Assembly: GCA_015521765.1 (NCBI GenBank)
Contig: WANO01000041.1
Location: forward strand, 1 to 36,586
Direction: 5' to 3'
Length of the DNA: 36,586 nucleotides
From: Desulfurococcales archaeon
GTDB taxonomy: Archaea; Thermoproteota; Thermoprotei_A; Sulfolobales; AG1
Shown in pieces: positions 2,743-30,881 of the stretch. Both the position numbers and the translations under genes were made by a program. Within the stretch, counting starts at the first letter, position 1. Each line of letters opens with the position of its first letter. The notes beneath the pieces were generated by a model. The model was given only the letters and a program-made list of their open reading frames with translations, made no database searches and was not told the DNA's origin.

Positions 2743-3768
2743 GTGGTCACAATCAGAAAGCCTAAACTATATATAACTAGAGAGCTATTCGAGGAAGCAG
2801 TAAAAAGGCTTGATGAGGTATATGACTACGAAGTATGGGACCGGTATGAGCCGCCGCCATATGATTATCTACTGAAAAAGCTACCTGAATACGATGCTGT
2901 TGTAACGCTTCTGTCCGATAGGATAGACTGCAATCTCATTGAGAGAATCTCACATAGAACAAGAATAATATCCCAATACGCTGTAGGATACGACAATATA
3001 GATATAGAATGCGCAACAAGAAAAGGAATATACGTAACCAATACACCAGGAGTACTAACCGAAGCCACAGCAGATCTAACCTTTGCCCTACTCCTATCAG
3101 TAGCCAGAAGAATAGTGGAATCAGACCACTTCGTTAGATGGGGGGAATGGAAGAGAACAAAAACAGGGTGGCATCCACACATGATGCTGGGAACAGAGGT
3201 GCATGGGAAAACCATAGGTATAATTGGGTTTGGGCGAATAGGGAGAGAAGTCGCTAAGAGAGCTAGAGGTTTCAACATGAAAATACTCTATTACGACCCC
3301 GTTAGAGCACCGGAAGACCTCGAAAAAAGTCTTAACGCGAAATACGTAGATCTGGATACGCTACTATCTAAAAGCGATTTCATAACGATACATGTACCTC
3401 TATCAAAAGAAACCAGACACATGATCAACGAAGACAAATTCAAGAAAATGAAGAGAGGCGCAATACTAATAAATACCGCGAGGGGAGGAATAATCGATAC
3501 AGACGCATTAGTAAAGGCGCTTGAAGAAGGAATACTTGCTGGTGCTGGTCTAGACGTGTATGAGGAAGAACCATTAGATCCCAACCACCCATTAACTAGA
3601 TTCAAAAACGTGGTTCTGGTTCCCCATATCGGGTCTGCTACTAGAGAAACGAGACTAGCCATGGCCAACCTAGTTGTCGATAACCTACTGGCATTCGCAA
3701 GGGGGGAGGTCCCTCCTACACTGGTAAATAGAGAGGTCACCAATATAAGGAAACCTGGATTTTCATAG
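2743..3768 (+). CDS. D-2-hydroxyacid dehydrogenase (glyoxylate reductase-like)
   Basis: [16 protein letters not shown] Rossmann motif, [25 protein letters not shown]. Confidence 0.92.
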
Positions 3769-4326
3769 ATCTTTTTCCATAGATAGTTTCTCTAGCTCGT
3801 CAAAGAGATCATATATAACGTCTGCATCATCGATCATGCAGCTACTAGCATAGGGTTTAGCTGATACTCCAATATCACATCTATATCTACACAGCACGCC
3901 AATCTTAACCCCGCTTTTATTCCTATAGATATATAGATCCAGATCTCTAACAAAATATCCGACACACGCTATACACCATGAGCCAGAAAAACACCTGTAT
4001 ACCCGATCACCATATAGTTGTTTAAGGGCGTCGACATCCACACCAATAATATAGATATATACCTCTAGGCTAGATACCTGATCATCCAAAACAGCTTTAA
4101 TACAGTCTATTTTACCGATCTCTCTACGGTAACCACCTCTACCAATTCTAAGCTCCAGCTCCACATAGTTGAGCTCAAGATTACTTCGAACCTTATCAAC
4201 CCTACATCTCTTAGCTACACTCCTAGCTATCCTACTTATTGAGACGCCATCTCTAGGCGTGATCATGAGTCTAGCTACAACCTCTTTAAACATACAGTCA
4301 TCAACACCCTGAGATAGATGCTCCAT
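3763..4326 (-). CDS. Hypothetical Cys-containing protein
   Basis: 187-aa ORF filling a convergent gap; no family recognised. Confidence 0.6.
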
Positions 4327-23623: not shown

Positions 23624-23745
23624 AGCGGGGTAGGGCAGCCTGGTAGCCCGCGGGAGATCAGCGGCCTATAAACAAAAATTAGAGGCCGCGATCCGCGAAG
23701 CTCATAACCCCGAGGTCCGAGGTTCAAATCCTCGCCCCGCTACCA
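23624..23745 (+). tRNA. Initiator tRNA-Met (CAT) with a 45-nt intron, CCA encoded
   Basis: AGCGGGG...CCCCGCT-A-CCA, D arm GGGC/GCCC, anticodon arm CGGG^G-CTCATAA-CCCCG, T arm CGAGG-TTCAAAT-CCTCG; intron 23655-23699. Confidence 0.93.
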
Positions 23746-27133: not shown

Positions 27134-27544
27134 TTATTCTTGTTTATAGGGAATTACCTCTAGACCTCTTATTCTCTTAAAGTGTTTAACGTTTCCTGTG
27201 AGGACTGCATAGCCGTTCTCGCGCGCTATTATCCCTATTAATAGGTCTCTGAGTTCTATTGTTTGTCCTATAGATGATAGATAGGCTATCTCCATTCCAA
27301 CCTTTATGGCTTCTTCTACCTTTAGGCTTAAAATCATTAATGCCTCCACCAGATCTTCAACTTCTCTAACTCTCCCAAGCCTATAGGCACCCCAAGAGAG
27401 CTCAAATACGTTAACCACTGTAGTAGCTAGAGATACCTTAGAATCTATCATCTTACTGATCTTATCGACTGCATACTTCTTTCCCCGTAGAAAATCTACT
27501 AACACATCTGTATCTACCACTACTTTATCAGCTTCATACCCCAC
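27134..27544 (-). CDS. vapC: VapC-like PIN-domain toxin
   Basis: VVDTDVLVDFLRGK, SLATTVVNVFEL, LRDLLIGIIARENGYAVLTGNVKHF. Confidence 0.9.
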   Translation of the reverse strand: MGYEADKVVVDTDVLVDFLRGKKYAVDKISKMIDSKVSLATTVVNVFELSWGAYRLGRVREVEDLVEALMILSLKVEEAIKVGMEIAYLSSIGQTIELRDLLIGIIARENGYAVLTGNVKHFKRIRGLEVIPYKQE

Positions 27545-27762
27545 CTAGACCAAGCCTCTTTAATCTCTTTAAATACCTCATAGAGATCTTCATCGCTTAC
27601 GTCCCGCCACACACCTGCTAAGTCTATTAAGCTACGGTGTTTTCTCACTAATCTTAATATAACGTCTGAAAAGCTTTCTCCAGGCTTTTTAATGCGTAGC
27701 AAAGCTTCATAGGCTTCAAGTGATATAGTTATTGTCTTTACACCCATACTATAACACCACAT
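27520..27762 (-). CDS. vapB: VapB-like antitoxin
   Basis: MGVKTITISLEAYEALLRIKKPGESFSDVILRLV; overlaps the PIN toxin. Confidence 0.87.
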   Translation of the reverse strand: MWCYSMGVKTITISLEAYEALLRIKKPGESFSDVILRLVRKHRSLIDLAGVWRDVSDEDLYEVFKEIKEAWSRWGMKLIK

Positions 27763-28153
27763 TTATAAGTGTATGTACACACTTATAAATGTATAATACT
27801 TAAACTCCAATAAAAATAAGAAAGAAGGGCAACCTAATAATTCATTTGGGAATAATGCTTTAAGCAATTTAACTGATCTCCTTTATCCTAAAGAGTGAGA
27901 GTTCTTGGTGTTGCTAGTGTGAGGAGGAAGCCGGCTATCACACCCTCAACATTATGTTTTTCATCACCTAGATGATAACTAAATACATGATAAAATAAAT
28001 TAAATATAGTTGTAATGGAATGCCATAACGAGGAGACATAAGGTGTAGTGGAGTATTATGGTATCGTCTTCAACCATGGTATTCGTTAAAATAAACTTAA
28101 TTACCTAATATTAATAATGGTTTTGTCGGATCCAATAGCGGGCCTGTCCAGGT

Positions 28154-28187
28154 GATTTGAACCCGGGACCTCCGGCTCCGCAGGCCG
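28154..28187 (-). repeat. tRNA-Arg 3'-part direct repeat, copy A (partial tRNA-like sequence)
   Basis: 34-nt perfect identity GATTTGAACCCGGGACCTCCGGCTCCGCAGGCCG with 30774-30807 in intact tRNA-Arg(GCG). Confidence 0.9.
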
Positions 28188-28604
28188 GCACTTAAATGAT
28201 TCTGTTCCAAAATATTATTCTTGGGGGCAGATAGGTATAGATTTCATAATCTACCACCTAGTATGTGAGACAGCTGTTTAGGTTTTGATCCAAATCCCTT
28301 CAGGAAGGTTATGGAGATCAATGAATCATCTAATTATTTGAAGCAAGCTACTGAATTTAAATATTCTTAGCTTGTACTATTTGATTGGAGATCTAAAAAG
28401 ACGTTGTGGGAAACAGTCTTGTGAGGGGGTGTTTATAGATAACTAAGACTCTCTAGGTGCTTTAAGATCGCTAACGAGATAGAAGATGTGAAGCTCCGGA
28501 AACTGACCAGTAGGGGGTAATGTTGATATTAGAAACTAGGATTAGACTCCTACTTCAAAGCTGAAGATATAAAAGGCACTGTTCTAAATTAATGTTGTTT
28601 AGCG

Positions 28605-28853
28605 GTGGCTGGTATGGCTCTCTTACCCGGCTATAAGTGGCTTGAAATTGTGCCAGGTAGGCGTGGTGGTAGGCCTACTGTGAAGGGTACAAGGGTATCA
28701 GTTGATGACATCCTAGACATGCTCGCGGCCGGCTGGAAGCCCGAAGAGGTTGCTGAGGAATTTGATATACCGTTGGAAGCTATATATGAAGCATTAAGGT
28801 TTGCATCTAAGACGCTAAAGAGGATTACAGTCATTGCTGAGACTTCTGGCTGA
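28605..28853 (+). CDS. DUF433 antitoxin-like HTH protein
   Basis: GRRGGRPTVKGTRVSVDDILDMLAAGWKPEEVAEEFDIPLEAIYEALRFA. Confidence 0.92.
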   Translation: MAGMALLPGYKWLEIVPGRRGGRPTVKGTRVSVDDILDMLAAGWKPEEVAEEFDIPLEAIYEALRFASKTLKRITVIAETSG

Positions 28854-29187
28854 CGAAAACATACCTAGAAAGCTGGCAACCCTTCTGAGGCGGCATGGCG
28901 TAGATGTTGCCCGTCTACAAGACCTGGGTACCCGAGGTATTGGTGATAGAGAATTAATCAATATGGCAAACGAACTTGAGAGAACAATACTGACAAGAGA
29001 CGCCGACTTTACAGCACCAAGTCTCTTGCCTCTGATAAGGCATGGAGTAATCTATATCTCCTACCAGCCCTCTAAGAACGAGATACAAAGGCTAGCTAAG
29101 AGAATAGCTTCAATAGCCAACCAGCTAGAGCCTAAGCTCGGGCTACTTATAGTTATAGAGCATGAATACACAGAAGTATATGACTAG
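28834..29187 (+). CDS. DUF5615 PIN-like toxin
   Basis: LRLLADENIPRKLATLLRRHGVDVARLQDLGTRGIGDRELI...ILTRDADF; overlaps the DUF433 gene. Confidence 0.9.
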   Translation: MLRLLADENIPRKLATLLRRHGVDVARLQDLGTRGIGDRELINMANELERTILTRDADFTAPSLLPLIRHGVIYISYQPSKNEIQRLAKRIASIANQLEPKLGLLIVIEHEYTEVYD

Positions 29188-29400
29188 CGCTCAATTCACT
29201 AGTTCGTAGCTATGTCTAAGTGCAATGGTCTGAATCCAGGAAAACATAGCGTATATGAACTAATCAATAATAAGTAGTAATTAATAACACCATAATTATA
29301 CTATGAGCCACTGACCACATACACCCATACATAATAAGTGTTACCGTATAGCTCTCCAAAATAAATGGAAAAACATTAAAAGACCACATACGTGGCAGGC

Positions 29401-29435
29401 CCCGCCGGGATTTGAACCCGGGACCTCCGGCTCCG
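29401..29435 (-). repeat. tRNA-Arg 3'-part direct repeat, copy B (anticodon region reads CCG)
   Basis: 35-nt perfect identity CCCGCCGGGATTTGAACCCGGGACCTCCGGCTCCG with 30766-30800; the tRNA 5' half is not recognisable. Confidence 0.9.
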
Positions 29436-29597
29436 GAGGCTGGCCCTTATAAGCTAACGTCCCGCTAAGATACATTGTTTGGGGCGATTAGGTAAAGTTT
29501 TTTATCTACAAATCTATCAGCTGGGAGAATAACTTGTGATGGAGAGTCGCTGCATGACAACGCGGATTTTGCGCTAGTATGACTCTACTTATTTCCA

Positions 29598-29620
29598 CAT
29601 TATAATGGTTCATTATAATG
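29598..29620. repeat. Two copies of the perfect palindrome CATTATAATG, 13-nt period
   Basis: Sequence CATTATAATGGTTCATTATAATG. Confidence 0.7.
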
Positions 29621-29963
29621 GGGATTAGACCGAGTGGGCGGGAAAATGGTATGCAAGAGTCTTATCCTAAAATAATCAAGCTACCTGGGAGGTCTAAGGA
29701 AATCTTTGAGGTATGATACAATATTACTGCGGAGAGGGACAAAGAGCAGTGACATTAGATGAGACCCCGTGCACACCCACACCAGGGATGTACACGCTTG
29801 ATCAGTCGGGAGGGGGCATAGGTGGTGTCTGTCTATCGGCTCTTATTGGTGCCTGTCTCCTTGCTAGTATTCCCTGGTATGCCTCCATGAGAGCTCTATT
29901 AGAGTCCGGTATAGAGGACGTGTATAGCCATGGCTGCTTACATTTTTCTCTACATAGGCTTTG

Positions 29964-30464
29964 CTACTTCTCTCCTAGGTCTCTTAGGAGACTATCTACC
30001 AGGTTGTTGTTGATGTAGAATCCCTTCTCCTTGAGCCTCTCTATTGCGGGTTTAACCTCTCTTATCAGGCCTTTCAGCTTCAAGGTTTTTAGGAGACCTA
30101 GGGTGCCTATGATTCTTAGACCTAGTCTTCTTGCTAACTTTCTTCCCTTGAAGTCGTCTATTACTAGTAGGCTACCCTTCTCCAGGGCTAGCGCTATTGC
30201 ATCAGCCTCACCTTCGTCAACAACAGTCTTCAGCACGATGACGAGTCTCTCGTCGCGAGGCTCCTCCACAGACAGAAAACCAAGGCTCTGAAAATACTTT
30301 TTCTCCTTGACGCTGAGCTCTCTCATGACGCTCGGTGGAACAACTATCCTCTGGAATAGCTGGCTGAGCTTCTCCAGTAGCCCTGCGTGCTTGAGGGCTA
30401 TGAGGGGAGAAGTATTTGAGACCGCGATACTAGCCTCCTGTCCTTCCCGCGAGTTTTTCTGCAA
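29964..30464 (-). CDS. DUF3368 PIN-like toxin
   Basis: AVSNTSPLIALKHAGLLEKLSQLF...VDEGEADAIALALEKGSLLVIDDFKGRKLARRLGLRIIGTLGLL. Confidence 0.92.
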   Translation of the reverse strand: MQKNSREGQEASIAVSNTSPLIALKHAGLLEKLSQLFQRIVVPPSVMRELSVKEKKYFQSLGFLSVEEPRDERLVIVLKTVVDEGEADAIALALEKGSLLVIDDFKGRKLARRLGLRIIGTLGLLKTLKLKGLIREVKPAIERLKEKGFYINNNLVDSLLRDLGEK

Positions 30465-30723
30465 TCTTCAGCTCCTCCTCCAGCTCCTTCTCGTCTAGAT
30501 TGATTATGCCGACTTTTCTCCTTGAGAGCTCCCTCATGAAGTCCTCGACGCAGAGACTGGCGAGTTCGGCAGCTTGCTTGAGGGTTAGCCTACCCTCGCG
30601 GTAAAGTTCGACAGCTAGGAGGAGCCTAGCTTCAGCCTCATCTAAAGCGATGTGTTCAGGTATGCTTATTTTCAAAATCCTGGCCCTGGCATAGCTCAAC
30701 TTTGTAACCCCCATATAAGCCAT
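30430..30723 (-). CDS. UPF0175 antitoxin
   Basis: LLLAVELYREGRLTLKQAAELASLCVEDFMRELSRRKVGIIN; overlaps the DUF3368 gene. Confidence 0.9.
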   Translation of the reverse strand: MAYMGVTKLSYARARILKISIPEHIALDEAEARLLLAVELYREGRLTLKQAAELASLCVEDFMRELSRRKVGIINLDEKELEEELKIAEKLAGRTGG

Positions 30724-30761
30724 GTATGCTAATCCTAAAAATATTGATAACTGTAATGTGA

Positions 30762-30836
30762 CGGGCCCGCCGGGATTTGAACCCGGGACCTCCGGCTCCG
30801 CAGGCCGACGCCCTTTCCAGGCTGGGCTACGGGCCC
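30762..30836 (-). tRNA. tRNA-Arg (anticodon GCG)
   Basis: Minus strand GGGCCCG-TA-GCCC...GGGC-GTCGGC-CTGCGGA-GCCGG-AGGTC-CCGGG-TTCAAAT-CCCGG-CGGGCCC-G. Confidence 0.94.
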
Positions 30837-30881
30837 ATAAACCCTTACTCCTCCTAGTTTATTATGGTTGGTTCTGTCTAT

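Follow-up and report, generated by a model that had tools for sequence, protein, structure and literature searches.

The window, i.e. the whole stretch of DNA analysed here, comprises 36,586 nt and corresponds to positions 1-36,586 of the forward strand of contig WANO01000041.1 (assembly GCA_015521765.1). An intact tRNA-Arg(GCG) gene, which presumably serves as attachment site and anchors the array described below, is located at 30762-30836 on the minus strand (30760-30837 in the ARAGORN call), and its orthologues in genomes G003 and G001 are 97-100% identical. A BLASTN search of the window with this tRNA gave exactly two additional matches, both on the same strand and located 1.3 and 2.6 kb downstream of the tRNA 3' end. 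The nearer match, fragment B, covers 29401-29440 (39/40 nt, E = 6e-16 within the window) and is unbroken for 35 nt from 29401 up to a mismatch at the first anticodon base; the farther match, fragment A, is identical over 34/34 nt at 28154-28187 (E = 3e-14 in the same search). In both fragments the matched part extends from the anticodon stem-loop to the T-arm, and more diverged homology continues to the 3' end. A profile of the tRNA-Arg 3' half, also used to scan other loci, was applied with nhmmer and extended fragment B to about 29398-29444 (minus strand, E = 2e-12) and fragment A to 28138-28189 (minus strand, E = 2e-10). The arrangement proposed in the first-pass annotation, an intact tRNA-Arg(GCG) gene with two same-strand partial copies downstream, is confirmed, as is the 34-nt identity of copy A.

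The 35-nt identity of copy B, claimed by the same annotation, is confirmed; its origin from the adjacent gene is not. The anticodon loop of fragment B is CTCCGGA, which is of the CCG rather than the GCG type, and its best matches are tRNA-Arg(CCG) genes; therefore, this fragment was not derived from the neighbouring tRNA-Arg(GCG). Fragment A is of the GCG type and would represent the oldest boundary of the array. Fragment B, the putative att core, is adjoined by a weak, degenerate inverted repeat, CGCCCCA..GCGGGACG (29458-29486, minus strand), and the position and resemblance of this imperfect repeat suggest that it is the counterpart of the GTCCCA/TGGGAC class present at other cassette ends.

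The tRNA gene and the two fragments delimit two segments, each with an attachment-site layout, namely an intact tRNA at one end of the array and a same-strand 3' fragment at the other. Cassette 1, between the tRNA and fragment B (29398-30761, minus strand, 1.36 kb, without integrase), encodes a candidate UPF0175 antitoxin (30430-30723, minus strand; PF03683, E = 1e-17) and a candidate DUF3368 PIN-like toxin (29964-30464, minus strand; PF11848, E = 6e-13). Cassette 2, between fragments B and A (28138-29397, minus strand, 1.26 kb), encodes a candidate DUF433 antitoxin (28605-28853, plus strand; PF04255, E = 2e-18) and a candidate DUF5615 PIN-like toxin (28834-29187, plus strand; PF18480, E = 9e-20). 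The Pfam scores of all four proteins are far over the cut-off, both pairs form two-gene operons of known type II toxin-antitoxin (TA) families, and TA activity is predicted for them. The pair of cassette 1 is parallel to the tRNA, and that of cassette 2 is antiparallel, which is the usual orientation elsewhere. One TA pair per segment had been proposed previously and is supported by Pfam; a further pair is located just past fragment A, composed of a VapB-type antitoxin (VAPB_antitox; 27520-27762, minus strand; PF02697, E = 1e-17) and a VapC-type PIN toxin (27134-27544, minus strand; PF01850, E = 1e-7), which sits in a flank common to the window and G001. No integrase was found in either segment by the ORF list or Pfam, and because they lack an integrase of their own we term these segments non-autonomous rather than full integrative elements.

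Fragment-bounded arrays in one archaeal order

The window tRNA was initially searched against the window's genome and 40 relatives, where pairs of intact and partial tRNAs 1-2 kb apart were found in several families. Using the tRNA-Arg 3'-half profile, we scanned about 90 tRNA-Arg neighbourhoods, in which an NCG locus was counted if the sequence continued for 1 kb or more downstream (n = 79); the surveyed hits carry the names "Desulfurococcales" or "Acidilobaceae" and represent one archaeal order. Fragments were detected at 22 of the 79 NCG loci versus 0 of 13 CCT/TCT loci, and their positions within 8 kb are strongly asymmetric: 34 are downstream and on the tRNA strand, none is upstream, and one is on the opposite strand. 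Families f1, f2, f3, f4, f5, f6 and f10 are fragment-positive, and no fragments were found by the profile scan in families f7, f8, f9 and f11. The largest arrays have five or six segments, with at least five fragments at the tRNA-Arg(CCG) of G029 and six at the tRNA-Arg(CCG) of G019. G029 is a closed genome of 1,669,696 bp, which argues against an assembly artefact. In a control with non-Arg tRNAs (G019 and G029), a few tRNA-Val and tRNA-Thr fragments were found, some with TA genes close by; tRNA-Arg is therefore the dominant but not the exclusive target. Fragment-bounded TA arrays are an order-wide feature and not a local oddity.

The density of TA-family genes is 1.10 per kb within the arrays versus 0.038 per kb outside, a 29-fold enrichment that is somewhat inflated since the TA profiles were derived from array proteins. 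A TA gene is present in 37 of 41 segments (36 counted directly plus segment 5 of L038x, which is truncated by the locus end). The Pfam families include PIN with AF2212-like, UPF0175/DUF3368, DUF433/DUF5615, DUF2283/DUF4258, TumE and PIN_2, and most of the operons are antiparallel to the tRNA; other TA pairs within the same type of boundary, for which a search had been suggested, thus exist in the relatives. Segment sizes peak at about 1 kb (17/41 at 0.9-1.2 kb). Several 2-kb segments contain two TA pairs, separated in L054 and L096 by a still recognisable decayed core, so that at least two such segments are in fact two cassettes. The more distant fragment is the weaker one in 25 of 34 within-array pairs.

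The DUF5615 toxin of the window was compared with 84,980 species genomes, yielding eight close homologues (65-84% amino acid identity), all in metagenome-assembled genomes named Desulfurococcales or Acidilobaceae. Seven of the eight are located within tRNA-Arg-fragment arrays, and the remaining one is on a contig of 3.2 kb; three distant homologues (30-36%) are outside such arrays. The observation that had been named as contradicting a cassette, i.e. these TA pairs in relatives without tRNA fragments, was hence not made among the close homologues.

Could the fragments represent the 3' halves of tRNAs that are split or contain introns, or else local tRNA duplications, with TA genes adjacent by chance? 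Split tRNAs are known in this order (PMC4390854), and a TATA-like stretch precedes many fragments. Yet up to six fragments per array, many of them degenerate in the T-arm, accompany an intact tRNA; they end at the anticodon stem-loop; and chance adjacency is at odds with the TA enrichment between them. The first anticodon base is the same as in the adjacent tRNA in 29 readable fragments and different in about 12 (13 were scored, one being a deletion artefact). Anticodon bases of another isoacceptor argue against local duplication of the neighbouring tRNA and fit a crossover just 3' of the first anticodon base, with the 5' side supplied by the incoming element. Together with the same-strand downstream pattern at NCG loci and a hybrid fragment at a site of cassette gain or loss (G018/G028, see below), these bases led us to reject the split-tRNA or intron explanation, and we consider any version of this reading extremely improbable.

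Gain, loss and spread of cassettes

Two comparisons within genera revealed gain or loss of cassettes with breakpoints in the fragment cores; the first-pass annotation had suggested a search for empty sites. Genomes G018 and G028 are 93% identical beyond the array. In G028, the tRNA is followed by a segment, fragment 1, a 3.0-kb segment with two TA pairs, and fragment 2; in G018, the tRNA and a segment are followed by a single hybrid fragment, the upstream side of which corresponds to fragment 1 and the downstream side to fragment 2, with the switch point within CCTCCGGAGCCA. The G028 segment missing from G018 aligns with the TA pair of window cassette 1 at 75% over 722 nt, and the two have the same orientation. 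In the second comparison, the window and G001 (96% identical over one core region) have in common fragment A and 1.5 kb past it (94.6% nucleotide identity). Between the tRNA and fragment A, G001 carries one AF2212/PIN cassette and the window carries two different ones; the identity ends at the anticodon loop of fragment A, and the DNA on its tRNA side differs.

Cassettes have also spread horizontally. Related cassettes (75-84% nucleotide identity) are found in other families next to tRNA genes of different isoacceptors. For the TA region of window cassette 2, matches in other loci at CCG and TCG tRNA-Arg sites show 73-83% nucleotide identity; those at a CCG site in G019 and at a TCG site in G009 stand at 80-83%. 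Both genomes belong to another family, and their core DNA is at most 64-66% identical to that of the window or gives no match. Likewise, segment 1 of L028 (G000) and the second half of segment 3 of L096 (G009), which occupy different array positions in different families, are 80% identical over 925 nt, nearly end to end.

Such exchanges might be attributed to homologous recombination among near-identical tRNA-Arg 3' sequences, which would need no site-specific enzyme. The cores share 45-50 nt, this process was proposed for module exchange between tandem archaeal elements (PMC8371274), and segments 2 of L050 and L096 are alike in their left part and TA genes but differ in their right ends. However, both same-genus breakpoints fall at the anticodon-loop end of the core, only the NCG genes among the tRNA-Arg genes are used, inverted repeats at a fixed distance are conserved though unnecessary for homologous recombination, and the first entry at a tRNA requires integration anyway. 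We regard this explanation as improbable, although better than that of split or duplicated tRNAs.

Integrase elements and a proposed mechanism

PF16795 integrases are encoded directly behind tRNA-Arg genes in G004, G005, G007 and G008. Locus L115 contains a 14.9-kb element extending from tRNA-Arg(CCG) to a perfect 45-nt fragment, and L114 contains a 9.5-kb integrase element followed by three integrase-less segments, each with TA-type genes. Both autonomous elements use the same 45-nt core as the cassettes; the first-pass annotation had suggested looking for a full-size integrase element of this kind. The L114 integrase matches structures 3UXU, 3VCF and 4DKS, labelled by their depositors as probable integrase, which we take to be structures of the SSV1 integrase; PHROG integrase 5127 is matched by all four integrases tested, and the L106 integrase has a clear N-terminal HTH. 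No relatives of the L114 integrase or the DUF5615 toxin were found in IMG/VR contigs.

In the integrase elements of L114, L115 and L116, one and the same inverted repeat recurs close to both ends (TGTTTCA, GTTCACG). Of 41 right ends, 16 have a perfect inverted repeat of 7 bp whose centre is 25-33 nt away from the core, compared with a mean of 0.33 and a maximum of 3 in shuffled right ends, the shuffles being mononucleotide and the right ends related rather than independent. The termini are common to unrelated TA families. In G004, two integrase-less segments, segment 4 of L114 (AF2212/PIN) and segment 2 of L037 (no recognised gene), have at both ends TGTTTCA, the repeat of the integrase element of this genome, which makes them, as judged from their termini, the best candidate match of a helper and its satellites. 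Counting against the cassette reading proposed below, the left ends are of several types, most without an obvious inverted repeat, and the arm repeats are degenerate in the window and imperfect in most right ends. We did not adopt a reading of the inverted repeat with its TATA-like stretch as a TA promoter: it is also found beside fragment B, at the end opposite to the start of the TA operon, and integrase elements bear the repeat at both ends. A double role is possible.

We propose that the segments are small non-autonomous integrative TA cassettes, serially integrated by an integrase supplied in trans; the first-pass suggestion of serially inserted mini-elements with a TA pair as main cargo is supported in this respect by the relatives, the gain and loss events, the shared att core, and the lack of any indication that the fragments are tRNA genes. 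This is the probable reading of the data. Each cassette would comprise an att core, corresponding to the last 45-50 nt of a tRNA-Arg gene (anticodon loop through CCA end), an inverted-repeat arm that often adjoins the core, and a single TA operon. A circular cassette and an intact tRNA-Arg(NCG) gene would be recombined by a tyrosine integrase encoded elsewhere, with the crossover within the anticodon loop, where IntSSV1 exchanges strands (PMC8371274). Insertion would restore the tRNA and displace its former 3' part downstream, and a subsequent insertion would enter between them, giving a tandem array with the youngest cassette at the tRNA. The likely source of the enzyme is the PF16795 (SSV1-like, HTH-bearing) integrase of the full-size elements, because these use the same core as the cassettes and carry terminal inverted repeats of the same kind, to which the HTH may bind. 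Movement of cassettes as 1-kb units by this route is likely. An intact PF16795 integrase was found neither in the window's genome (a 64%-complete assembly with one degenerate copy, C57) nor in G001, and a helper is presumed for the former. The TA pair probably aids persistence of the cassette via addiction and may serve defence.

The main rival explanation is that full-size integrase elements were reduced to their tRNA-distal TA pair and an att core, the TA pair resisting deletion, so that the arrays are layered scars, and no mobile 1-kb units exist. This reading recalls the CIMEs, which are integrase-less, att-flanked and stacked one after another behind a target gene that full elements also occupy; in Streptococcus the most decayed ones are farthest from that gene (PMC7563491), much as the distant fragments here are the weaker ones. 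Window-type segments are likewise integrase-less, att-flanked and stacked, and integrase elements occur at the same sites: at L114, segments with att sites but without recombination and transfer genes stand in tandem with a full element, although the window itself has none. Further support comes from an AF2212/PIN pair at the distal end of the 9.2-kb integrase-bearing segment of L106, from a short integrase remnant in segment 4 of L096, and from some segments of large size (3-9 kb) or without any TA pair; such segments fit decay of larger elements and count against TA cassettes. On the other hand, the ends of the L106 segment differ in repeat class, so that it may be two elements. Moreover, sizes peak at about 1 kb per TA pair rather than being dispersed, copies of one cassette occupy different positions in the arrays of different families, and unrelated TA families share termini. 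As to whether the cassettes derive by deletion from an ICE or IME and moved by accretion, the evidence points both ways: the size peak and the cross-site copies favour unit mobility, and L106 and L096 favour decay. We consider layered remnants less likely than mobile cassettes.

Relation to known cassette systems

The nearest known kinds of element, by analogy, are CIMEs, integron cassettes and pdif modules. The archaeal arrays differ from CIMEs in a near-uniform cargo of one TA pair, in units of about 1 kb, in termini common to unrelated TA families, and in spread over isoacceptor genes and families, with no conjugation genes seen. They resemble integrons and superintegrons in having a single anchor site followed by a tandem row of short cassettes, each of which has one recombination site; TA pairs are common in large integron arrays. 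In contrast to integrons, the cassettes are delimited by tRNA 3' fragments instead of attC hairpins, and the anchor is a working tRNA gene. Archaeal integrons have been reported via IntI/attC searches (PMC9668308). We put forward, tentatively and with less confidence than the cassette reading itself, an archaeal system parallel to integrons, in which TA cassettes of about 1 kb are independently mobile between NCG tRNA-Arg genes and between species through HTH-bearing SSV1-like integrases that act in trans and recognise their att cores and arm repeats, and the tRNA gene serves as a growing, time-ordered TA archive. This would be an integron-like solution based on a tRNA gene. If mobile in trans, the TA cassettes would be, to our knowledge, among the smallest protein-coding integrative elements.

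Archaeal tRNA-targeted elements with SSV1-type and pNOB8-type integrases also leave an intact tRNA and a 3' fragment and integrate in tandem at one locus (PMC8371274). The cassettes share this layout and the crossover in the anticodon loop, but are about 10 times smaller and lack an integrase. Tandem integration, module exchange and the strand exchange of IntSSV1 are already known (PMC8371274); the terms "non-autonomous" and "toxin" are absent from that review. Searches of open full texts gave no description of archaeal TA cassettes bounded by tRNA fragments. The arrays account for the tRNA fragments dispersed through such genomes. Through site-specific capture at tRNA-Arg, they also provide a concrete route by which chromosomal TA systems could accumulate and spread in hyperthermophilic archaea; the PF16795 integrase and the TA cassette constitute a testable helper-satellite pair.

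The dif modules of Acinetobacter are discrete, have no recombinase of their own, very often carry a TA pair, and are singly gained or lost (PMC13141974), as are the recombinase-less TA cassettes. Whereas pdif modules are plasmid-borne with alternating inverted sites and rely on host Xer (XerCD), the cassettes are chromosomal, with tRNA-derived sites that are all direct and on one strand, and their presumed enzyme is an element-borne SSV1-like integrase. The host Xer/dif system was also considered as the recombinase and set aside, since the segment boundaries are unlike dif.

Cassette ends and repeated fragments

Cassettes behind tRNA-Arg that carry unrelated TA genes have a common left-end sequence (L038, L046, L050, L051, L096 and L106), conserved 3' of the CCA with the approximate consensus CAAACC..AACCATCATTAAC..GAATRTATCGRTWACCGAGACC..GGCCGAG. 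A TATA-like stretch (TATTTATAGC, TTATAAGT), located between the inverted repeat on one side and the att core on the other, lies upstream of most of the tRNA 3' fragments (e.g., L038:7276-7290) and might serve as a promoter for transcription to either side. At the tRNA locus L039, the downstream flanks of two successive fragments (2382-2480 and 3335-3430) are identical over at least 50 nt. This points either to a tandem event that happened very recently or to an error in the assembly, which has a run of N close by.

Cargo of the full-size integrase elements

Large proteins matching PHROG DNA-methyltransferase families are encoded in SSV1-like integrase elements at tRNA-Arg (L114:2071-5070 and L115:1599-5318). 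These proteins are restriction-modification-like, and their presence gives the full-size elements the look of mobile defence islands.

Other tRNA genes

The cassette system is not confined strictly to tRNA-Arg: in the related genome G019, TA-like genes, such as DUF2283/DUF4258-like ones, lie between tRNA-Val(CAC) or tRNA-Thr(TGT) and downstream 3' fragments of these tRNAs (L139:6209-7992 and L148:4329-5314). The same genome contains two same-strand tRNA-Asp(GTC) halves (L145:3616-3674 and 4200-4260), resembling a split tRNA or a gene with a very long intron; the halves end in the mutually complementary CCTCCGCCCC and GGGGCGGAGG. In the window, an intron-containing tRNA-Met-like gene (23624-23745) was detected only when introns were permitted in the search.
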